From the NCBI GenBank assembly GCA_012031925.1, contig JAAUSE010000001.1, positions 1 through 64,000 of the forward strand: a stretch of 64,000 nucleotides of DNA, read 5' to 3'. The notes below the pieces were generated by a model that made no database searches, was not told the DNA's origin, and saw nothing but the letters and a program-made list of their open reading frames with translations. Shown here in pieces: positions 2,973-62,245 of the stretch; positions within the stretch are counted from its first letter, which is position 1, and every line of letters starts with the position of its first letter. This DNA comes from Candidatus Altimarinota bacterium (GTDB lineage Bacteria; Patescibacteriota; JACMRA01). The translations under genes and the position numbers were made by a program.

Positions 2973-3800
2973 TTAAATACTCAATAGGGTATTTTTTTGA
3001 AACTCATGAATTTGCTTCTCATTAGCAATTGCAATTGTTGTAGCCCACATATCAGCTTCCACTGCTGTATTACTAGTTACAAAAACTGCAGATGGTTCAA
3101 TCGAATCTTGCGTAAATGGATTGATTAGATGGTTTTTATTTTTTCCCTTATTGGTATTCCAGTTTCTCAAAAAAGTTGATGAGGATGCAATTGCAGAGTT
3201 GGAAATTTCTATTTGTCCAATGGATTGAGATTTTTTGGTTGGATGTTGAAGGTGAAATGATTGTGCTTCTTTGGTGTGACAAAAAATGTCACCTCCTGCA
3301 TTGATTATAAAATTTTGCAACTGGAACTGTGATTGTAAGATTTTGGAAATTTTATCAATTAAAAAGCCTTTACCAAAACCTCCAAAATCAACACCTCCTT
3401 TTTTTAGGAAGATTGTTTTGTTTTGGATTATTAAATCCAAACTAGGACTGGGTAGTTTTAACTGATTGTTTTTTTCTTGGAAAGTGTAATCTTTATCATA
3501 ACCTAGATTGGTTAATTGTCCCTCCAAAAGAAAATTAAAGATCTTATTTGTTTTCGTATAATATATAATTCCTAACCTTAATAATTCTATAAACTCTTCA
3601 TTATCAACTTCTAATTCTTTGTTCTTGTTTAACTGAGAAACTAAAGAATTTTCGTCAAACCTAGAATAATTTTGATTAAACTCTCTGATAGTATTCTTCA
3701 AAATGGGCAAAATTTGTAATTCCCTCCCCCGCTCTAATTCAAAGTACCAAAAGGTTCCAAGACCTTCAATTGGTTCAAGATTTTGTAGCTTGATAGCCAT
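2973..3800 (-). CDS. apbE: ApbE family FAD:protein FMN transferase
   Basis: ApbE covalently attaches FMN from FAD to a Ser/Thr of FMN-binding-domain proteins, using Mg2+. The 275-residue protein has the family signatures. VDFGGFGKGFLIDK (137-150) matches DxGGxxKGxxxD. INAGGD lies at 166-171 and HLINPFT at 224-230 (family HxIxPxT). EADMWATTIA (248-257) matches the metal-binding ADxxAT block. The start overlaps the stop of the upstream FMN-binding gene by one base, so the genes are translationally coupled and the substrate is almost certainly that neighbour. There is no obvious lipobox, so a cytoplasmic or uncertain location is inferred. It is the last gene of a three-gene redox unit. Confidence 0.92.
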   Translation of the reverse strand: MAIKLQNLEPIEGLGTFWYFELERGRELQILPILKNTIREFNQNYSRFDENSLVSQLNKNKELEVDNEEFIELLRLGIIYYTKTNKIFNFLLEGQLTNLGYDKDYTFQEKNNQLKLPSPSLDLIIQNKTIFLKKGGVDFGGFGKGFLIDKISKILQSQFQLQNFIINAGGDIFCHTKEAQSFHLQHPTKKSQSIGQIEISNSAIASSSTFLRNWNTNKGKNKNHLINPFTQDSIEPSAVFVTSNTAVEADMWATTIAIANEKQIHEFQKNTLLSI

Positions 3801-4417
3801 TACATTGCTTGAGATTGAATTGAACTAATAGCTTTATTGAAGGCTGCAGTAGATAATGAAGCTCCTGTAACTCTGCTAAGCGAGATTTCTTCAAGATTTT
3901 TTCCAATCAATTCATCAGCATTAAAACCTTTGCGAAAATTGTTTTGATGAATCAAACTTTGACCTTCAGTTGCAAATAGCTCAACACTTAAATCAGTTAC
4001 GATATCATCTTCAAGGGTCAAATTAACAACAATTTCTTCATCTGCACCTCGTGGAATCCTATAAGTACCTTCTTCTTTGTAGGTTCCATCAGTGAACTGA
4101 GATCCCTCTTTATCATTATTAGAATCTTCAGCTACTTGTAAGACAACTGATTGGTCTTCATTGTTAGGGTCGTTTGGTAATGTACTAGAGTTTGGTTTGT
4201 TTGGTTCAGATATTCGATCCTCAACTAAACTACTTTCACTGCTGGCAAGCTCATTAGTTGACTTATTGTTACTTTGAGAATTGAAAAATAAAATCAATCC
4301 ACCAGAAACAAGAACAATTAGAGAAATTATTACTACTGCAACACTTTTGGAATTCATATCGAACACATTACCAAAATTGAATATCTTTGGCAAAATTAAA
4401 TTGGACAGGTTCATCAA
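3800..4417 (-). CDS. membrane-anchored FMN-binding domain protein (flavinylation target)
   Basis: This 205-residue protein has one N-terminal membrane segment (about 26-46), a low-complexity Ser/Asn/Glu linker (about 47-105) and a C-terminal FMN_bind domain (PF04205 type, related to RnfG/NqrC). Near the C-terminus, TGASLST (184-190) fits the ApbE flavinylation motif (S/T)GA(S/T)x(S/T). The domain should be outside the membrane, carrying covalent FMN and passing electrons. The start codon overlaps the stop of the ferric-reductase-like gene by 4 bases (ATGA), and apbE overlaps its own stop. An internal ATG (residue 21) is an alternative start. Confidence 0.88.
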   Translation of the reverse strand: MMNLSNLILPKIFNFGNVFDMNSKSVAVVIISLIVLVSGGLILFFNSQSNNKSTNELASSESSLVEDRISEPNKPNSSTLPNDPNNEDQSVVLQVAEDSNNDKEGSQFTDGTYKEEGTYRIPRGADEEIVVNLTLEDDIVTDLSVELFATEGQSLIHQNNFRKGFNADELIGKNLEEISLSRVTGASLSTAAFNKAISSIQSQAM

Positions 4418-5677
4418 AAGCTAAACTCTTCTGTGTATATATTATTCCTGTCTAGCCCTATAGATAAAAGATTGGTTATTATGCTTTTCATAAAACCAGA
4501 AGAGCCACACAAAAAAACTTTATATTTATTCAGATTTTTGCTAGCTAAGATGATTTGGAGATTTTGTTGATCAAGTCTACAAGCTTTGTGGTGAGGATTG
4601 GTTATAGAATCTTCTTGTGAATAAAATTCAAAAAGGTTTTTGGAAGGTACTGAGTTTTTGAGATCATCCAAGTCTACCACATCTTCTTTAAATCTATTAC
4701 ATACAATAAAGATTGAATTGGGTGTAAAATACTCTTTGGCAAAAGCAATTAGAGGAGTTATTCCAATTCCACCGCTAATAATTATTTTGTCTTTTTGGTT
4801 GTGACCCTCAGCGGTGAACTGCCCTAGAGGTCCAAAGATATTTACATTTTTTCCGGCTTTGAGTTGATGAACTTTTTTGGTAAATCTACCCTCTAATTTG
4901 ATTCCAAGTCTAAGCTTATCACCCTCAACACTAAGTATCGAGAACGGTCTGGACTCACCAAAACCATTAAGTTGCAAATACACATATTGACCAGCATTGG
5001 CTGAGAGCGCTTTTTTATCAGCAGTGATTAGATCTAAAATAGCAACCTTAGCACCCTTCCCTATTATTTGAATATTTTCAAGTGTATAAACTTTTTTGAA
5101 AAACCAGCTAGATATAAAAACATGTAGCCCAAAAATATTATATATAGCCCAAAAAGAATTGTGATGAATATATTTAAGCTGGGAAGATTATCCCAATAAT
5201 ATCCAATATCACGAAGATGGAGAAAAACCAGAAAAACCAAAGGGTAAGTTAGATAATGTATATAAAGCCATGGTCTATATCGAATTCTAGATTTCAAAAG
5301 CACAGAAGTTATCCAAATAATCAAATATATTAGCAAAGCAAGGCGACCAAACGAAATATGTAGTTCTAGCTCATTTCCTATCAAAGGAGTAATGATCCAG
5401 TAGAAATTCTCAAGATATGAATACATTTGAATTAGTGGGTGAGACAATACAAAAAAAATACCATACTTACGCAAAGCACGATGAATTTTGTTTAGTCTTA
5501 CATAATCTTTGGATATCAACCGTGACAAGGGTTTGGCTCCAAGAATAACGTTCCACAACATTAACACTAATCCAACATATCCCATAATATTTGCTGTTTT
5601 AGCTAAAAACTCAAATCTCCAACAAAATACAAACCAAATATGGGTAGAATAGTGAGTGTAATAACTAACTTGAACAT
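4414..5677 (-). CDS. ferric reductase-like transmembrane haem protein with FAD/NAD(P) domain
   Basis: When two single-base deficits are repaired (five-base A/T run at 5605-5609 and six-base run at 5092-5097) the gene reads as 421 residues from ATG 5677. It has about six membrane helices containing paired His residues (HRALRKYG, LSHPLIQM, then IHY and LHL about 13 apart) suited to bis-haem ligation. A cytoplasmic ferredoxin-reductase-type domain follows, with the flavin motif SRPFSI, the nucleotide motif IISGGIGITPLIAF and the C-terminal CGSSGFM. Such proteins move electrons from NAD(P)H through FAD and haem across the membrane. Its partner acceptor is the overlapping FMN-binding protein. The promoter is TTGACC-17-TATACT upstream. 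Without repair it appears as two open frames (5064-5585 and 4414-4983). Confidence 0.85.
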
Positions 5678-9629: not shown

Positions 9630-10924
9630 GTGAAAATAAAAAAAATCGCGCAATTAATCGTATTGTAGTTGGGGATGTTGGTAGCGGCAAAACTATAGTG
9701 GCTTTTTTAATTGCCCTGACTTATTTGAAGAATCTCAAAGCTGGGCAAGTGTGCATGTTGGCTCCAACGGAAGTTTTGGCTTATCAACATTATGTTAATT
9801 TGTTGCAATTTTGTAATAATTCAAATAAAAAAACTCAACAAGGATTTCCAATAGTGGTTTATCTTTCTAGTAAAAAAAACTGTATCAATGATGAAGTAAA
9901 ATTGACCAAAAAAGCTCTGGAAAAAAAACTAGATAAGCTAATGTGCGAAGATAAGAATCAAAGAATTTTTTGGATTGGAACTCATTCACTCTTGTTTAAT
10001 GAATTAGTGAAGCCTGATTTGGTTATGGTTGATGAACAACACAGATTTGGTGTGGAGCAAAGAAAAAAATTATCCCAAAAGGATCAATCAAAAACTAGTC
10101 CACATTATATAAGTTTTAGTGCAACTCCAATTCCAAGAACATTAGCATTGAGTATTTACTCTTCTTTGAAACCACATTTTTTGGAGACTCTACCGGGTAG
10201 AAAGAAAATCAACACAAGGATTAATTATTTTGAAGATTTTGAAACAAATATAATTAACCAAATACAAGCTAAAGTTAATTTGGGTCAAAAAGTTTATGTT
10301 GTTTGTCCAAGGATTGAGACAGATCAAGAAGAACCTAATGAAGAGCTTTGGTCAACTACTTTGACTGCCAGAAAACTAGGGAAAGTCTTTGGAGATAAAG
10401 TACTTGAAGTACATGGTAAAAAAGCTGAAAAAAAAGAAATTCTGGATGAATTCAAAAATTCTATGGAAAAACAAATTTTAGTAACAACTACTGTTGTTGA
10501 AGTCGGTGTAGATGTTGGCGAAGCTACTTTGATGGTAATTCTAAACAGTGAAAGATTTGGCTTGGCTGCCCTACACCAACTGCGTGGAAGGGTTGGTAGA
10601 AATGATTATAAAGACAATCAATGCATCTTAGTGACTTGGAAAAAATTCTCTAGAAGTCGAAGATTGAGATACTTGTGTGAGATTCACAGTGGGTTTGAGT
10701 TGGCTCAAAAAGATCTGGAACTTCGTGGAAGTGGAGATATGTATGGCAAAAATCAAAGTGGATATGATTCTGAGATAGAAGGTTTTATTGGACTTGGACC
10801 GGAAAAGTACCAGCAAATCGCTGAGTTGGTTGGTGGAATTGATTTTGGTAATTTAAAACAAAATGGGTTGGAAAGATTAGAGAGATTTGTAAAAAAAGAA
10901 AGTTCTAAAGTTTGGGATGAATAG
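9630..10924 (+). CDS. recG: RecG-type helicase core lacking the N-terminal wedge domain
   Basis: The protein contains all helicase motifs of RecG, which remodels stalled replication forks: GDVGSGKT (Walker A), APTEVLA, DEQHRFGV (DExH box), FSATPIPRTLAL, TTVVEVGVDV and QLRGRVGRN, followed by the RecG C-terminal region. Normal RecG has about 270 residues before Walker A, including the OB-fold wedge that grips the fork. Here only about 20 are possible. A GTG at 9630, 6 bases after a house-style promoter, plus one added A in the A8 run at 9638-9645, gives a continuous 431-residue frame. Without the repair the frame opens at TTG/ATG-like codons near 9698, inside the helicase. Either a free-standing helicase core or a 5'-truncated gene is possible. 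Confidence 0.85.
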
Positions 10925-33742: not shown

Positions 33743-35883
33743 ATGAAATCTTCTACACAAACTTCCAAACCATTTAGGATTCACTCCGATTATGATCCAG
33801 CTGGAGATCAGGGTAAAGTTATTCAAGACATAATATCTAGTATTAATCAAGGTAACCGTGAACAAACTATTGAAGGAGTGACTGGCTCTGGTAAGACATA
33901 CATGATGGCTAAAATGGTCGAAAAACTTCAACGCCCTACTTTGGTTATTGCTCATAACAAAACTTTGGCTGCACAACTAGCTGAAGAGTTCAAGAGATTT
34001 TTTCCAAATAACGCTGTACATTATTTTGTAAGTTACTATGATTATTACCAACCAGAAAGCTACATTCCCCGTTCAGATACTTACATAGAAAAACAAACCC
34101 AAATTAATGAAGAGATTGATCGTCTTCGTAACGCTTCTACTCAAGCACTCCTAACAAGAAAAGATGTTTTAATTGTAGCTTCTGTTAGTTGTATTTATGG
34201 GCTGGGAAACCCTGAGGATTTTGAAGCACTGAAGTTAGACATGAGGATTGGAGAAAATTATAGGCTTGACAAAATAATAAGACGTTTAGTTGATATGCAG
34301 TTCATTCGTACTAACAGTGATCTTAGACGAGGGGTGTTTCGATTATTGGGTGATACACTTGAAGTTATGCCAAGCTCTGAAGAGAATTGTTATAGATTTA
34401 TGTTTTTTGGAGATGTTTTGGAAAAAATTCAGGCCTTTGATTATGTTACTGGTAATATAATTGAGGAGATGAATGAGTATATAATTTTTCCAGCAAAACA
34501 ATATGTAACTACCCAAGAAAAGATTAACTCTGCTTTGGATAGAATAAGAACTGACATGGAAATGCAGTTTGAGAAGTTTAACAAAGAGGGAAAATTATTA
34601 CAAGCTCAAAGAATTCGTGAACGAACTGAAAATGATCTTGAGATGCTCAAAAATCTTGGATTTGTAGGAGGTATTGAAAACTATTCAGTTTATTTTGATG
34701 GGCGAGAAGATGGCCAACCACCTACTACTTTGATAGATTATTTTCCTGAGAATAGTTTGACCTTTATTGACGAATCTCATATTACTTTATCCCAAATTGG
34801 AGCTATGTATAATGGAGATCGGAGCCGCAAAATTAACTTGGTTGATTATGGTTTTCGTCTCCCATCAGCAATGAATAATAGACCACTACAAAAAGAAGAA
34901 TTTTTTGATAAAGTTAACCAGTTGGTGTATGTGTCAGCAACACCTGGGGATTATGAGTTAGCCAATTCGGCTATAATTAGCAAGGCTATTATTCGGCCCA
35001 CTGGTTTATTGGATCCGTTAATTAGGTTAAAACCAGTTAAGGATCAAGTTGATGACGTGCTGGAACAGGTGCGCCATCGAGTTGAGAATGGTCAAAGAGT
35101 CTTAATAACTACTCTCACTAAAAAATTTGCAGAAGAGCTTGATTTGTACTTTAAGCAGATCAATGTCAAATCTGCATATATTCATAGCGATGTAGAGACT
35201 TTGGATAGGCTTGATATTCTTAGTGATCTAAGGCGAGGAAAATATGATGTATTAATTGGAATTAACTTATTGAGAGAAGGTTTGGATCTTCCTGAGGTTT
35301 CTTTGGTGGCTATTTTTGATGCTGACAAGGAAGGTTTTTTGAGATCAAAACGGAGTTTGATTCAGATCATAGGACGAGCTGCAAGACATGTTAATGGTGA
35401 AGTTATAATGTACGCTGATAAAGTCACAGATTCTATGAAAAATGCTATAGAAGAAACAGAAAAAAGGCGAGAAATACAACAAGCTTATAATCAAAAAATG
35501 GTATTATACCAAAATCTACCAAACGAGAACTTCAAAGTATTGCTGATGATGTTAGAAAAGAGGTTGGGGAAAATGAGAATTGGGGCAAAGCAGGAGTTAC
35601 ATATTCTTCAACAAGTGGAGGATTTCAAGAGGGTGGTAATAATTTTGAGATTGAAAGCAGGTTCTCGCGTAAAAAATCCAAGTCTATTCACTCTGAAGAA
35701 GCTCCTAGAAAATCATTCAAAGCCAAACAAACTTACGATGATTTTGATGTAATTAAAGAGGTGAATTTTAGAGAACTTCAAAAACAAAAACTAAGTAAAG
35801 ATGAGCTCAGAGAAAGATTACAAATTGCAATTGATGCTATGGATTTTGAAATGGCTGCTGCCATTAGGGATTTGTTAAAATAA
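33743..35883 (+). CDS. uvrB: UvrB, excinuclease ABC subunit B (one-base lesion near the 3' end)
   Basis: UvrB is the DNA-damage-verifying helicase-like subunit of nucleotide excision repair, loaded by UvrA and recruiting UvrC. Visible motifs are GVTGSGKT (Walker A), the beta-hairpin region YYDYYQPESYIP, the DESH box and the C-terminal helicase motifs including IGRAARH. As given the frame ends at 35752 in nonsense. Adding one A to the A6 run at 35493-35498 restores NGIIPKS and continues through a linker to a complete UVR domain (ELRERLQIAIDAMDFEMAAAIRD) that contacts UvrC, with TAA at 35881-35883 (713 aa). The lesion is more likely a sequence error than a real loss. Confidence 0.95.
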
Positions 35884-37221: not shown

Positions 37222-38456
37222 TTATTCTAAAATTGTTAAGTAAATTATCTCGGAGTTGTTTTTGTCTAAGGTGATTGAACTAATATTGCCAATATCGTTA
37301 GCTAAGCCTGGTTGGGTTGAGGTTGACCAAGATTGTCCTTGATTCTTGGTCTCAAATAACTGATTATCAATACTTGCTAATATTCTTGATTTGCCTTTTT
37401 GAGGATCAGCTGCTAGCCCAGCAAAATCAAACCTTTCATCTGGTAATGGAAAAACTAGTTTGTTAAAAGGTTGATTTAAAGATTCACCAAGCCACAACTG
37501 TTTATCAGCAATTATTAGCCAGTTATCTTTATCAGCTTTGATTGGTACAATAGATTCAAACTTAGAAAACCTTTCAACATCTTGAGATTTATTTGAAAAA
37601 TTTAATCTAGATCCTTGAGTTTCCCCTATTGTACTTTTGGTGCGAGTTAGTTTTTGCTCACTCCAGGTCTCACCCTCATCAGGAGATAACCACAAACCTT
37701 TGGACCTCAAAAGAATGTAAAAAGATTGTCAAATTCTGGCACAAAACCTAATTGAATCGCTTGATCATTAAAATCTCGCATCTTTGACCAGCTTTGACCA
37801 GAGTCTTGGCTTCGTATAAGTGTGCCTTGATTGAGTAAACCAAACACGTTTGCATTGTTGTTAGGATCGATAGCTATGGAAATAATTGAGGTGTTTGTAT
37901 CTACTGCAGAATAAACTTCATCAAAATTTTTTCCACCATTAACAGATCTGTATATTTTGCCAATATCGTTTTGGATTCCTGCATAAAAAAGTACTTTGGG
38001 ATTGTTGGAGTCAATTTTTAGTTCTGTACCAATAAGGCTATCATTTTGAATTAACTGAGTTTGTGTTTGTTGGTTATTTGGAGTGACTGGGAAAATATAT
38101 TTACGACTCCATTGTTTACCACCTGAATCAGTATAAAACAATCCTTTGGTCCTAGTGAGAAGATAAAACTCATCACTACTTATCTGTTCAATTTTGAGAG
38201 TAGGAACTGTAGTAAGCCCTTGAGGATTGCTTGTGTTGTCTAATAGTTTGACTGAATTGATTTTACCAAAAGCTGAACTTATTGAAGGATCTCTTTTGAG
38301 TACACCAAGAATTTGACCATCGTTTCTTGAACCAAAATCGAGTCCTGGAAGTGTACAAGAAGCTGCAGTTGTCAAGATAGCAAATGAGGTTAGAGTAAGT
38401 GTTGCTATTCTTTGCATTATAACACTATTGGTTATCTTTTTGAACAAATCCATCAT
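37222..38456 (-). CDS. exported BNR/Ycf48-like beta-propeller protein, probable lipoprotein
   Basis: Two overlapping frames (37707-38456 and 37222-37710) become one 411-residue protein when one T is added to the minus-strand T5 run (plus 37719-37723), giving NLFYILLRSKGLW across the join. An N-terminal signal peptide ends near TTAASCTLPG, a weak lipobox with Cys. The body has repeated Asp-box motifs: DSGGKQWS, NGGKNFDE, DSGQSWSK, DEGETWSE, NQGQSWST. These fold as a beta-propeller in sialidases and in Ycf48-type assembly factors. The substrate or partner is unknown. A glycosidase activity is not supported because no catalytic residues are recognisable. Confidence 0.72.
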
Positions 38457-39831: not shown

Positions 39832-40715
39832 TTAGTTTTTTTTGAGTTTGAAGTGGAGTAATTTTTTTATAGGAGTGAGGCAGACAGCTACAACAATTAA
39901 AATACCTCCAAGTAAGCTAGCTGTAGTTACCTGCTCGCCTCCAAGTGTCCAAGCAAAAACAGCTCCAAAGACAGTTGCAAGTGTAAGGATTAAGGATAAA
40001 GTAAAGGGCAATAAGTATTTTTGTGTAATATTCATTACTGTGAAGACTCCTAATGTTGGGATCAAAACGAGATATGACAAAGATAGGATGGATGAAAAAT
40101 CCCCTACCCCAAAAGATCTTCTTTGAAACAAAATCAAAATCGTTGAGAAAATTGCTACAGTTACAAATTGCTGAAAGGCATTTACTAAAGAGTTGATTTT
40201 TTGTACTCTGACTTGAGAATCAACTATTGTATTATAAAATGCATAGGCTAAGGCTGCTAAGAGTGAAAGGATATCTCCAAAATTTATTTTTGTAAACCTC
40301 CAGTTATCACCCAAAGCCCAAGGATACTCAAAAAAAGCTCAAGAATTTTGAGTCTGGACAGTTTCTCTGATTGCAAAAAAGCAGATATAATTGGAACAAA
40401 TATAATAAAAAGTCCAGTTAAAAAACTAGAATTAGAAGCTGTAGTGAATTCCAGTCCAATATTTTGAAGAACCATAAATAACCAAAGAAACAAACCACTG
40501 ATCATCCCATCAAGCCAATTATCAAAGAGATTATTTTTTTTGATTATCAAAAATAGGCCCAAAAAAACCGAGGCCCAAAAAAATCTGTATAAAGCTATTG
40601 CTACTGGGTCAACACTACTAATTAGATCTCGAATCACAAAATAAGTGGTCCCAGAAAAAACCATAGAGAATGTCAGCAAAGCTACTGAAATATTTTGTTT
40701 TTGTGTTTGTGTCAT
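39832..40715 (-). CDS. EamA/DMT-family transporter
   Basis: Ten predicted membrane helices in two EamA halves. As given it is split into 40284-40715 and 39832-40314. Adding one A on the minus strand to the A5 run (plus T5 at 40287-40291) restores GLQKINFGDILSLLAALAYAF, a normal junction between the two EamA repeats, and gives 294 residues, the usual length. The family exports small metabolites or amino acids, and substrate cannot be inferred. A TTTACA-17-TATAAT promoter lies 11 bases before ATG. Its 3' end nearly touches the convergent DM13 gene. Confidence 0.85.
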
Positions 40716-41570: not shown

Positions 41571-43800
41571 ATGGCTAAATTAATCCAAATTCTTTTGGCA
41601 AACATATTTTTGTTTGTTGCAGTTATTTTCTTTCCTATTAATACATATGCAGAGGGTGATTTGTATATCTCAGAAGTTGGGTTTATGGGAAGTTCATTTG
41701 GAGGTGGACACGATAAGTGGGTAGAGATTTTTAACCCTACTCAAAACACAATTGACTTGTCTGAATATTCTTTGATCGTTGGTAAGGATTCTCAGGAGAT
41801 TGAAATTAAGGGCTCTATTCAATCTAACGAGGCTTCGATAATAAGCACAAACAGAAAGAGTACTGACTCAATATTCAATTATACTTCTAGAACCAATCAA
41901 ATTGTAAGTTGGAACCCAATGAGTTTTTTGAGCAATACCACAACTGATAAACACATCACTCTTAGGCTGCAAAAAACGATTACAGTATTTCTAATATTAT
42001 TTTTGATGGTATTTTTGTGGAGAACTCTTTAAATCATTTTGCAAATAACAAAGGTTCTATTGAATGTGATGCTGGAGGTTATTGTTGGAATAGTAATCAT
42101 CTTTTTTGGGAAGGAAATTACGGAACCCCAGGACTAGTGCCATATCATATTGTACAGAAGCTAGAGGAAATTGTCCCTGTTGCTGAAGTTATTGAAATTG
42201 TGGAACCTGCTCCTAATGTGGAATTGCTTCTAGAAACCAGCGGGCAACCAGTTTTGGAAAACAAAATTCAAAGTGAGTTTCAACTACAACCAATTGCTCA
42301 AAATGGTGAGGTTTTGGAAAAAACAATAAACACACAACCGATTAGCCAAACCAAAATAGAAGAGATGGTAACTGAACCAGTGTTGGAGACAGATTTAATT
42401 TCACCAACCGAGACTAGCTTAGCATCTTTGCCAACTTTATCAACAGAAATGGTTGTTAATGAGGTTTTAGTTACTACAGATCCAATAGAAAATAATTGGG
42501 AAATAGAACAATTTTTGGATTTGGCTACCCCTATTGAAAGGATCAACTCAGTTAATAAGCCAGTCATCGAAGGGATAAATTCTGGCCAAAACTCACTTTT
42601 GAGTGAAGTTGAATTTGATAAGCCTGCTTTGGAATTATCACAAACCCAGCTATTTAAGGAGGTTCTTGAGCAGCCATTAATAACTTTTGAAGATGCTGTT
42701 GATACTATAGAGATTCAAATGCAGTATGAATTAACTGATAATCACACCTATAATGATTTTATAGAAAATAAGATTGAGTTAGATAATGAAGTTAATCTTG
42801 CTCAAAAAGAAACTACCCTAAAAAACCTAGAAAAACTTATTGGAATTAAAGAGGTTAAAGTTGATTATGTATCTCAGTTTGGTCATCTTGAAGTCTTTGG
42901 GACAGACATTGTTAATACAAACCCTGAGGAAACTAACTATTACGAACTTGTTGAAGGATTTCAATTACAGAATGAAAGTCACAATTTTGTTGATGAGCTT
43001 GCTCCAATTTTGCTTGATGTTGATTATTTGGAATATTTAATTGATAACACTTTTTATGCAGAACAAAGTGAACCCTATATCGAAGTAAGTCAAAATGAAT
43101 TACACAACTTAGAAGAGTCTTCTAGTGAAGTAAATTTCAACTCAGCCCAAGAAACAGAATTTATTGAGTCAATTGAGGAGGGTATTATGGATAAGGAGGT
43201 ATTGTTTGAATCTATGTTGGAGACAAATTTAGTGAATTCTTTTGAAGAAGAGGGTGGGTTTTTAGATTTGGTTTTTGAACCTGTTTTGGATTTGATGACT
43301 TATCAAAAGTTTGCTGAGGATGTCTTAATTACAGAATTTCAAACTGACCTAGATTTGGATAATACTACAGAATTTAGTGCTTCAAAACCACATCAAGTTG
43401 TTACCAAAAGTATTCAATTAGATGGGGTCAAAAATTCAATTCTATCAACAAATAATACTCACGCAATTGAGTTCAATGAACCAATTACAAATATCAATAT
43501 TGTTGAAGTTGCCCATAATCTCATTAATAAAAACCATTCTGCGAGTTACAGTGTTGTTTCTGAATATTCTAACTTACTGGATCTTGAAGATATTTCTGAA
43601 AATAGTATTAACAATTATCAAACACACAACTTGTTTGTCCAACCTTCTCAATTAGGTAGCGATTATAATGATTTTCTTTTGGAACATATTAATCCAATTG
43701 ATTATGCTGACTTGGTATTACTTTTGATGACAGCTTTACATTATGAGTTCATTAGGTTTTCAAAAGATTCTGTTATTTTCTTAAACTTTACCAAAAGTAA
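41571..43800 (+). CDS. secreted lamin-tail-domain protein with long acidic region and C-terminal membrane segment
   Basis: ATG 41571 starts a signal peptide (IFLFVAVIFFPINTYA), and TTGACA lies at 41525-41530. Residues about 28-160 form a lamin-tail domain (LYISEVGFMGSSF, WVEIFNPTQNTIDLSEYSL). One A added to A6 at 41971-41976 restores this domain across the frame break (LRLQKNDYSISNIIFDG). A very long Glu/Leu/Asn-rich, acidic, repeat-poor region follows. As given the frame runs to 43978 over an opposing small gene. One T added at 43757-43760 instead gives a membrane helix, a Lys/Arg tail (FFKRFCYFLKLYQK) and TAA at 43798-43800, right before a terminator (743 aa). The lamin-tail fold often binds surfaces or nucleic acid outside bacteria. 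Confidence 0.75.
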
Positions 43801-51253: not shown

Positions 51254-52164
51254 ATGTCTTTATTTTTTTTATTTGTTACAATAATTATTGTTTTGATTCT
51301 TCTTGGGCTTTACACTGTCAAACAACAGAATGTGGCTATTGTTGAGCTTTTTGGAAAATTCTCCAGAACTGGCAATCCTGGATTAATTTTAAAATTCCTT
51401 TTTTTGAAAGAGTTGCTGGTCGTGTTAACCTTCGTGTGCAACAATTAGATGTGAGTGTGGAGACCAAGACCAAGGATAATGTCTTTGTTAGGGTGGTTGT
51501 TAGTGTGCAGTATTTTGTGCTTCCAGAAAAGGTTTATCAGGCTTTTTATTACTTGAGTAATCCAGAAGAGCAAGTGACCAGCTTCGTGTTTGATACTGTG
51601 AGATCTACTGTACCAACCATTATCCTTGATGATGTTTTTGAGAAAAAAGATGATATTGCTGATGCTGTCAAAAAAGAATTGTCAACGGTTATGGGGGATT
51701 TTGGGTACGACATTCTCAAAGCCTTGGTGACCGATATTGAGCCAGATGAAAAAGTCAAAGACGCTATGAACGAGATCAACGCCGCTCAAAGACTCAGGGT
51801 CGCTGCTACAGAAAAAGGTGAAGCTGAGAAAATCCTCAAAGTCAAACAAGCAGAGGCAGACGCTGAGAGTAAAGCTCTAAGTGGAAAAGGTATCGCCGAT
51901 CAAAGAATGGCAATTATTAACGGGCTCAAAGAATCTGTAGATGATTTTCAAAAAAGTATTCCAGGCACGGATGCGAGTGATGTGATGAATTTGGTTCTAA
52001 TTACGCAGTATTTTGACACTCTCAAAGACATTGGGTCTGGAAACAACTCCAACACAATTCTCCTCCCCCACTCCCCTGGAACAATTGGAGAATTAAGTGA
52101 CCAGATTAGACAAGCAATAATAACTGGCGTGGAAACTTCTAAAAAAACTAACCAACGAGGGTAG
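51254..52164 (+). CDS. SPFH/band 7 (stomatin/HIR-like) membrane protein
   Basis: An N-terminal membrane helix (LFFLFVTIIIVLILLGLYTV) is followed by an SPFH domain (VKQQNVAIVELFGKFSRTG...). As given it is split at 51448. One added A/T near 51382-51386 gives PGLNFKIPFFERVAGRVNLR and one 303-residue protein. VETKTKDNVFVRVVVSVQY is the band-7 core, and a long Ala/Glu coiled region (DAMNEINAAQRLRVAATEKG) follows, typical of stomatin/HIR oligomerisation. Such proteins build membrane microdomain cages. Codon use between about 51650 and 51900 is noticeably less AT-biased than neighbours, which may mean high expression. Confidence 0.85.
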
Positions 52165-55858: not shown

Positions 55859-56937
55859 ATGAATATCTTATGTATCAACACAGGTAGTACTAGTCTCAAA
55901 TATGAAGTTTTTGACCAGAATCATGTCTCAACCTTGAAAGGTGAATTTGGGAGTAACGACATCTTGGACAGATTGATTGAAGAGTTAGTGGATAACTCAA
56001 TGCAAATAAATGACTTTGATGTTGTGGTTCACCGAATTGTTCATGGTGGTGGCCAATATATAAAACCAACTCATATTACTGATGATGTCTTGAACAACCT
56101 CAAAGAATTAAATCACCTAGCTCCCTTACACAATCCACCAGCTCTCAAAGTCGTGGAGGAGATTTTTAGAAGATACCCAGATACTATTCAATATGCGGTT
56201 TTTGATACAGCTTTTCATGACACCAAAAAAGAAGTTGCCAAATACTATGGGCTTCCACTGGAGTTACAAAAAGATTTGAAAATTCAGCGGTATGGATTTC
56301 ATGGTATTTCTCACAATTACATTTCGGACTTTATTAGGAAGCAATACGGAGAAGATCAAAAAATAATTTCCTGTCATTTGGGAGGAGGATGTAGTATTTG
56401 TGCAATTGCTGATGGGAAAAGTGTTGATACAACAATGGGTTTTGGCCCAGAAGAGGGCTTGATAATGGGAACTCGTTGTGGTGATCTTGGAGCTGCGGTT
56501 GTTTTGTACCTTATTAGAAAAGGTTACAACCCAGATCAAATTGAAAATATTCTTAATCAAGAAAGTGGGCTATTGGGTCTCAGTGGTGTAAGTTTTGATT
56601 TGCAAGATCTTGAAAAAATCAAGAAAATCCTCAAGTAAAATTAGCCCTGGATGTTTTTGTATATAAGATTTTTAAAGAAATTGGGTCGATGTTGGCTGCT
56701 TTGGATGGAGTTGATGTACTGGTATTTACTGGAGGAATCGGGTTTGGTAGTAATTATATTAGAGAGAAAGTTGTAGCTGGACTTGGATTTTTGGGAATAG
56801 AGATTGAAAATATTGAAATAAATACTGATAAAAAAATCTCAATCGATGATTCAGCTGTGGAAGTTTGGGCTATAGAAACCAAAGAAGAAAAACAGATGTT
56901 AGATAATTATTTTGCACGTAGTCAAGAGCTTATTTAA
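55859..56937 (+). CDS. ackA: acetate kinase (one-base lesion)
   Basis: Acetate kinase makes ATP and acetate from acetyl-phosphate. N-terminal NTGSTSLKYEVF, VVHRIVHGGG, FDTAFHDT, YGFHGISHNYI, HLGGGCSICAIADGKSVDTTMGF and TRCGDLGAAV are all present. As given the frame stops at 56638. One A added to the A6 run at 56613-56618 gives NQENPQVKLALDVFVYKI and continues into FTGGIGFGSNYIREKV and the C-terminus (359 aa, slightly short). It sits 4 bases behind phosphoketolase, so it is co-transcribed. Because the active-site residues are conserved on both sides of the break, the lesion is probably an error in the sequence. Confidence 0.93.
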
Positions 56938-61235: not shown

Positions 61236-61757
61236 TTATTGAAAATCTTTATAAATTTGTGAAGCTTTTGGTCCAGAACTGCCTTGGTATTTGCCATTAT
61301 ATAGCTTAATGTCTCCATATGGTTTCCAAAAAGTTACTTGTGCAATTTTTTGGCCAACATATATTTTACAGGGTAGAGTTGCATAAAGCTGAAAGGTTAT
61401 GTTTCCTCTAGATCCTATGTCAATCAAATCAGCAGTAACATGTACAAACAAACCAAGTCTAGCAATCCCTGACTTAGCATGAATTAGAGGTACAAAATAA
61501 TTACTACCAACAACTTCTCTTGAAGATGCTAGATAAAAATCACCAGCATCTAGTTTCAAAAACTTACCATCATTTACAACCAACGCTTCATAGGAATTTT
61601 CTCTTTTAGGATCTATTGTTTTTTCTTTATATTTGATAAAATGGTTTCCTAGTGTTAAATCATATGAGTTGGTGCTTAAATTATTTTCATTAAATGGCAC
61701 TATTGAAATTTTATTTGATTCAACTTCTTTTTTTATTTGGTTTCCTGTTAAGATCAT
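61236..61757 (-). CDS. dCTP deaminase-fold protein with Gln at the catalytic Glu position
   Basis: The dUTPase/Dcd trimer fold is recognisable in 173 residues: MILTGNQIKKEV, NSYDLTLGN (Dcd start) and AKSGIARLGLFVHVTADLIDIGSRGNITFQL. In Dcd the motif is RSSLARLGL...DPGFxGxITLEL, where Glu activates water for deamination. Here that position is Gln (ITFQL), and the leading Arg is Lys-Ser. Deaminase activity is therefore doubtful, and nucleotide binding may persist. Overlaps the preceding paralogue by four bases (ATGA). Confidence 0.75.
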   Translation of the reverse strand: MILTGNQIKKEVESNKISIVPFNENNLSTNSYDLTLGNHFIKYKEKTIDPKRENSYEALVVNDGKFLKLDAGDFYLASSREVVGSNYFVPLIHAKSGIARLGLFVHVTADLIDIGSRGNITFQLYATLPCKIYVGQKIAQVTFWKPYGDIKLYNGKYQGSSGPKASQIYKDFQ

Positions 61758-62245
61758 AAAGGGTGGATTTTATTATTAAATTGTGGTTTATTATATTTAT
61801 TAAAATGAGATTTGTATTCTTCTACTTCTCCTATATTTCTCCAAAAGCTAATTTGTCCAATTTTCATGTACTTATAAACTTTTATATCATTACAGGCTAC
61901 TAATTCGAGTGTCCAGGAGTGGGAAGATTTTGTATGCCCCAAATCAGCTGATACTTGTAAGAATAATCCGAGTCTACCAACTGACGACCTTCCAATTAAC
62001 CTCATTGCATATTTTTGACTCCCTAGCTTTTCATAAGTGGAAGCTAAATACATTTTATTCTTCTTCAAAATAAAACCATCATCAGGGATTATTTGTTTTA
62101 TCCAGGAGTCTTTATAATATTCAAGAATAGTTTCACCAAGTCTGTAATTGTAACTATTTGGATTAATATTATCTTCACTAAACGGATAGATTTTAATATT
62201 ACCATTTTGTACTTCTTGGAGAATTTTATTACCAGTTAAGATCAT
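61754..62245 (-). CDS. second divergent dCTP deaminase-fold protein
   Basis: This 163-residue paralogue of the next gene opens with almost the same MILTGNKILQEV and keeps IGRSSVGRLGLFLQVSADL and WTLELV with the Glu. It has lost the DPGxxG loop (GHTKSSHS instead). So between the two proteins the Dcd active-site parts are split. A mixed oligomer sharing sites is possible but speculative. Tandem duplication followed by divergence is the simplest origin. Confidence 0.72.
   Translation of the reverse strand: MILTGNKILQEVQNGNIKIYPFSEDNINPNSYNYRLGETILEYYKDSWIKQIIPDDGFILKKNKMYLASTYEKLGSQKYAMRLIGRSSVGRLGLFLQVSADLGHTKSSHSWTLELVACNDIKVYKYMKIGQISFWRNIGEVEEYKSHFNKYNKPQFNNKIHPL

Follow-up and report, generated by a model that had tools for sequence, protein, structure and literature searches.

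The closest described counterparts of the locus analysed here are the MsrQ-like flavinylated systems (Méheust et al. 2021, PMC8238504), in which apbE and a gene for an FMN-binding protein typically occur together with a PF01794 membrane protein. Altogether 1797 such clusters have been described, mostly from Actinobacteria, and 1437 of them carry PF00175; this C-terminal NAD-binding domain is frequent, not obligatory (PMC8238504). The original prediction rightly treated ApbE-dependent flavinylated electron transfer as known and saw its novelty in a minimal, stand-alone unit. As the three-gene set described below belongs to the MsrQ-like class already published (PMC8238504), such a unit is not new. 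Our literature search found no dedicated description of the cassette in Patescibacteria, where extracytosolic flavinylation was reported to be strikingly under-represented (PMC8238504).

The window (the whole 64,000-nt stretch of DNA analysed) carries the set on the minus strand, from 5677 to 2973, in the order reductase, FMN protein and ApbE:

4414..5677 (-), NOX/ferric-reductase-like flavocytochrome, about 421 aa once two apparent base gaps are bridged
about 3800..4417 (-), membrane-anchored protein with a predicted FMN_bind fold, in which a linker joins an N-terminal TM anchor to a C-terminal domain
2973..3800 (-), ApbE, FAD:protein FMN transferase, 275 aa, PF02424

The genes are joined by one-base overlaps. 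TAATG at 3800 shares one base between the stop of the FMN gene and the start of ApbE, and TGATG at 4414 does the same for the reductase stop and the FMN start, provided that the first Met is used. An internal Met of the FMN gene at about 4357 aligns better with the relatives than the first one. The proposed translational overlap thus holds for FMN/ApbE, and for reductase/FMN only with the first Met. Our analysis confirmed the three-gene observation itself and lent partial support to its interpretation as a whole.

The joined reading of the reductase adjoining ApbE matched PF01794 in Pfam (E=1.8e-10), as well as FAD_binding_8/6 (PF08022, PF00970) and NAD_binding_1 (PF00175, E=4.7e-05). The uninterrupted middle frame (5067-5585) by itself gave E=3.2e-11 with PF01794. 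Four haem-type histidines, His66/His80 and His141/His154, are spaced by 14 and 13 residues, matching the bis-haem spacing known from the NOX/ferric-reductase fold. All four lie in the middle frame and are therefore independent of any frame correction. RPFS is found in the FAD domain, GGIGITP and CGS in the NAD(P)H domain, and EEFSF at the C-terminus; HPFS/RPFS, GGIG.TP, CG and a C-terminal E-x-F are conserved among the relatives. The presence of haem ligands in the sequence and in relatives had been named as decisive for a haem/FAD ferric-reductase-like protein, and the four histidine columns proved invariant in an alignment of 11 reductase relatives. A structure model of the relatives' reductase (pLDDT 86.7) has six TM helices followed by FAD and NAD domains, and the six-TM count of the window protein is taken from this model. 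The top PDB match of this model was SpNOX (8qt6, E=1.5e-17); NOX2 and DUOX were among those that followed.

The FMN protein gave no match to Pfam, FMN_bind (PF04205) included, even at E 0.1, and a PDB sequence search with its alignment yielded no useful match. Its assignment comes from the fold. In an AlphaFold model based on an alignment of 13 homologues, residues 90-186 mostly have pLDDT >90, and a linker of about 60 aa, rich in S/T/N, connects the N-terminal TM anchor to the C-terminal domain. Foldseek alone found nothing below E 0.001 for this model and placed IscU/SufU chains among the top rows. VIA realignment set one candidate, 8p2a, apart from the others (Z 9.3, rmsd 2.5, 87/89 residues); this is FMN-binding domain 2 of SaFMN3, a crystallised covalent-FMN domain of a multi-flavinylated protein. 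The runners-up, tied at Z 7-8, comprise the FMN domain 8p2b, NqrC and RnfG, as well as unrelated folds.

The TGASLST site predicted for this membrane-tethered protein is present, as S-R-V-T-G-A-S-L-S-T, and the [GST]GAS-L-[TS] columns are conserved among the homologues. The Ser of TGAS is therein the predicted FMN-carrying residue. The ApbE substrate motif is defined as D-x-x-[ST]-G-A-[ST] (PMC11334425, PMC12052999); the window protein has the [ST]GA[ST] core and a Ser in place of the leading Asp, and its relatives frequently have GGAS (GGASLT) at this position. Loss of the motif Asp is reported to have a minor effect only (PMC12052999). Still, the missing Asp and the frequent GGAS weigh against the cassette reading.

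ApbE is readily identified, as was predicted (PF02424, E=5.8e-34), and no other ApbE was found in the window's genome. The HLINPFT and ADMWATT motifs are retained in its alignment. A hydropathy scan revealed no hydrophobic N-terminus, signal or lipobox in the window ApbE or in 12 relatives. Characterised ApbEs are mostly exported lipoproteins, and cytosolic ones exist too (PMC12052999). The lack of a signal, against an FMN domain predicted to lie outside, counts against the cassette reading as regards the site of flavinylation.

A single-sequence contig scan with the reductase returned nothing, whereas a scan with the alignment recovered the relatives. With the reductase as the sole query, 11 named loci were recovered, and ten of them encode an FMN protein and ApbE no more than about 3 kb away. 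The order reductase-FMN-ApbE is seen in the window, L051 and L061, FMN-ApbE-reductase in L053, and reductase-ApbE-FMN in L054, while the saccharibacterial loci L055 and L057-L060 are arranged convergently. The FMN gene of L052 lies at a distance of 3 kb, and L056 has neither an FMN gene nor ApbE within the stretch covered. The proposed comparison of gene order thus shows the three genes grouped, in varying order, in Saccharibacteria, WWE3, Kerfeldbacteria and genomes of the same family.

The association of FMN protein and reductase is clear. Among 379 phylum genomes, 41 encode the FMN protein and eight a reductase that scores as in the cassettes (from about 340 bits upwards), and all eight are among those 41; because the eight represent about five families, a probability that ignores phylogeny would overstate the significance. 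The window's own reductase pieces score separately, at 186 and 181 bits. PF04205 gives matches in 16 of 145 genomes, as against 27 with a family-specific profile, a few of the 27 being weak matches that look like linker matches. Throughout the family and in the majority of similar genomes the protein stays below the Pfam FMN_bind model. Cassette-type systems are uncommon in Patescibacteria and largely overlooked by standard searches, and part of the reported under-representation of flavinylation may be a detection gap, because the divergent FMN protein escapes the Pfam model. Other Patescibacteria carry an alternative set of FMN_bind, ApbE and a multi-TM protein of about 500 aa with a C-terminal FNR domain (L038 6771-9748 and L046 6466-9291), resembling the NQR/RNF-like CPR systems.

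Patescibacteria are usually regarded as fermenters in which electron transport is nearly absent. The window's genome is patescibacterial (1.07 Mb, 51 contigs, about 81% complete), and its bearer is tiny and probably host-dependent. The respiratory families COX1, UbiA and Rnf-Nqr membrane subunit were searched singly; none of the three was found in this genome or in five family members, in line with the respiration-poor genome that had been proposed. The suggested search for quinone or cytochrome partners found neither UbiA nor COX1. Elsewhere the genome encodes a further PF01794 flavocytochrome, 462 aa long (G000:C24, L062 4880-6268), which is solitary, with no adjoining FMN or ApbE gene. It has a close counterpart in G003 (L063 5029-6429), and reductases that score like it occur in dozens of Patescibacteria genomes.

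Ferrochelatase was likewise not found in the window's genome or the five family members; FAD synthetase was not found in the window's genome and, within the family, only in G001, which itself has no ApbE. Single absences are weak evidence, because the genomes are 68-85% complete; absence across the family is stronger. As neither enzyme was found, haem and FAD are probably imported, and such reliance on outside cofactors weighs against the cassette reading. Genes for the phosphoketolase/lactate route invoked in the original prediction are present within the window, namely those for phosphoketolase and a D-2-hydroxyacid dehydrogenase, together with a broken gene for acetate kinase. Much of the window (6992-31599) is taken up by four giant surface-type repeat-domain proteins (852, 2010, 1860 and 2498 aa), and at 61236-62245 two related genes adjoin each other that appear, from sequence, to encode dCTP-deaminase-like proteins of 173 and 163 aa.

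We consider an MsrQ-like, ApbE-dependent transmembrane electron-transfer cassette to be the best explanation of the locus, and a highly probable one. In such a cassette, NAD(P)H would pass electrons to FAD in the reductase's cytosolic C-terminal domain, and these would traverse the membrane via two b-haems, each held by one histidine pair. ApbE would covalently attach FMN to the anchored, outward-facing FMN_bind protein, and this FMN would pass the haem electrons to an outside acceptor such as ferric iron, a quinone, a flavin or another soluble oxidant. Given that no oxidase, quinone synthesis or Rnf was detected, the cassette could serve as an electron outlet, an iron reductase or both. Electron dumping is plausible, and iron reduction is a serious alternative to it.

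In the latter case the cassette would act as an assimilatory ferric reductase, converting surface Fe3+ or bound iron to Fe2+ for uptake rather than disposing of electrons. We regard this as possible, if somewhat less probable than its opposite. Published MsrQ-like clusters often lie beside iron transporters, 153 of them with VIT1 (PMC8238504), and here, at about 2-5 kb from the cassette, PF01988 marks a VIT-family gene (361-891) and PF02583 a metal-sensing repressor (943-1206). Yet the VIT gene and the cassette are on opposite strands and separated by two unrelated genes, no VIT homologue is found around the cassette in the stretches from relatives, and exporters also occur among VIT-family proteins. 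VIT1 as a member of the unit was rejected for its absence near the relatives' cassettes. The plus-strand VIT-family protein, shorter than the PF01988 model, and the PF02583 repressor that follows it may form a self-regulated metal transport pair of their own.

The SpNOX match of the model raises the alternative of a bacterial NADPH oxidase, in which the reductase would convert O2 to superoxide and the FMN protein would be an accessory. This fold match cannot separate oxidase from reductase, since the fold is common to ferric reductases generally, and the steady company of the FMN protein and ApbE follows the MsrQ-like relay pattern instead; we find an oxidase improbable.

The cassette reading has also to account for the deposited reductase gene, which is spread over three frames rather than one ORF and requires two -1 shifts to be joined; this broken state counts against the reading. 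Within the reductase the apparent one-base gaps are:

5602..5632 (-), first gap, interval holding T5, frame change -1
5063..5102 (-), second gap, interval holding A AAA AAG (A6)

In total, the window has eight breaks in seven genes, two in the reductase and one each in the genes for acetate kinase, an EamA transporter, sortilin-like, LTD and band-7 proteins, and uvrB. Each needs exactly one extra base, and every interval contains or touches a homopolymer run of >=5:

5063-5102, homopolymer, one base missing
5602-5632, the same
56611-56639, the same
40283-40304, the same
37706-37724, the same
41963-42023, the same
51365-51427, the same
35495-35539, the same

That the breaks are real, either because the gene is a pseudogene or because -1 frameshifting is programmed at A AAA AAG, is very hard to credit: this classic -1 slippery heptamer does sit exactly at the reductase frame junction, but the other reductase break (5602-5632) has none, the one-base signature recurs in all seven genes, uvrB and acetate kinase included, and the relatives' reductase is a single ORF of 423-441 aa. 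In view of the shared homopolymer gaps and intact relatives we reject programmed frameshifting, and we judge the reductase breaks to be assembly errors. SR1-type recoding of TGA was not supported either, as the reductase terminates at TGA and its relatives are single ORFs under table 11. We take the eight breaks together as a systematic deletion error in this assembly, and other "split" genes of this genome need to be read with caution. A RecG-like helicase part (9698-10924) begins at motif I without the usual N-terminal domain and perhaps marks another assembly break.

If active, the MsrQ-like cassette would enable the cells to discard reducing power or to reduce iron, but would make them dependent on outside haem and FAD. 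A broader and rather unlikely extension is that flavinylated export is under-counted in Patescibacteria, with a cytosolic ApbE, an FMN_bind protein that crosses the membrane with its flavin covalently bound, scavenged haem and FAD, and a respiration-free outlet that possibly leads to the host.

Compared with described systems, the predicted window reductase shares with SpNOX (8qt6) the 6 TM helices, the FAD and NADPH domains, the two haem histidine pairs and a C-terminal aromatic residue; the two are only about 20% identical, and the window protein is encoded in a cassette alongside an FMN protein and ApbE. Flavin-based EET of Listeria (FmnB; PMC9973259) likewise uses an ApbE-type enzyme that flavinylates an electron-exporting surface protein, as we would predict here, whereas at our locus no UbiA was found, a flavocytochrome would provide the membrane step and ApbE has no export signal. 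The NQR/RNF-like partial CPR systems (PMC8238504) also combine an FMN_bind protein, ApbE and an FNR-type NAD(P)H domain, but their multi-TM protein, fused to FNR, is without the four haem histidines, and here a PF01794 flavocytochrome takes its place. With the MsrQ-like class the locus has in common apbE, the FMN-binding gene and a PF01794 protein with C-terminal PF00175. The published set was found via PF04205/PF02424 with an export-signal filter and is mostly from Actinobacteria, whereas here the FMN protein escapes PF04205, ApbE is signal-less in all 13 clusters examined and the hosts are Patescibacteria. The window cassette is a member of the published MsrQ-like flavinylated systems.
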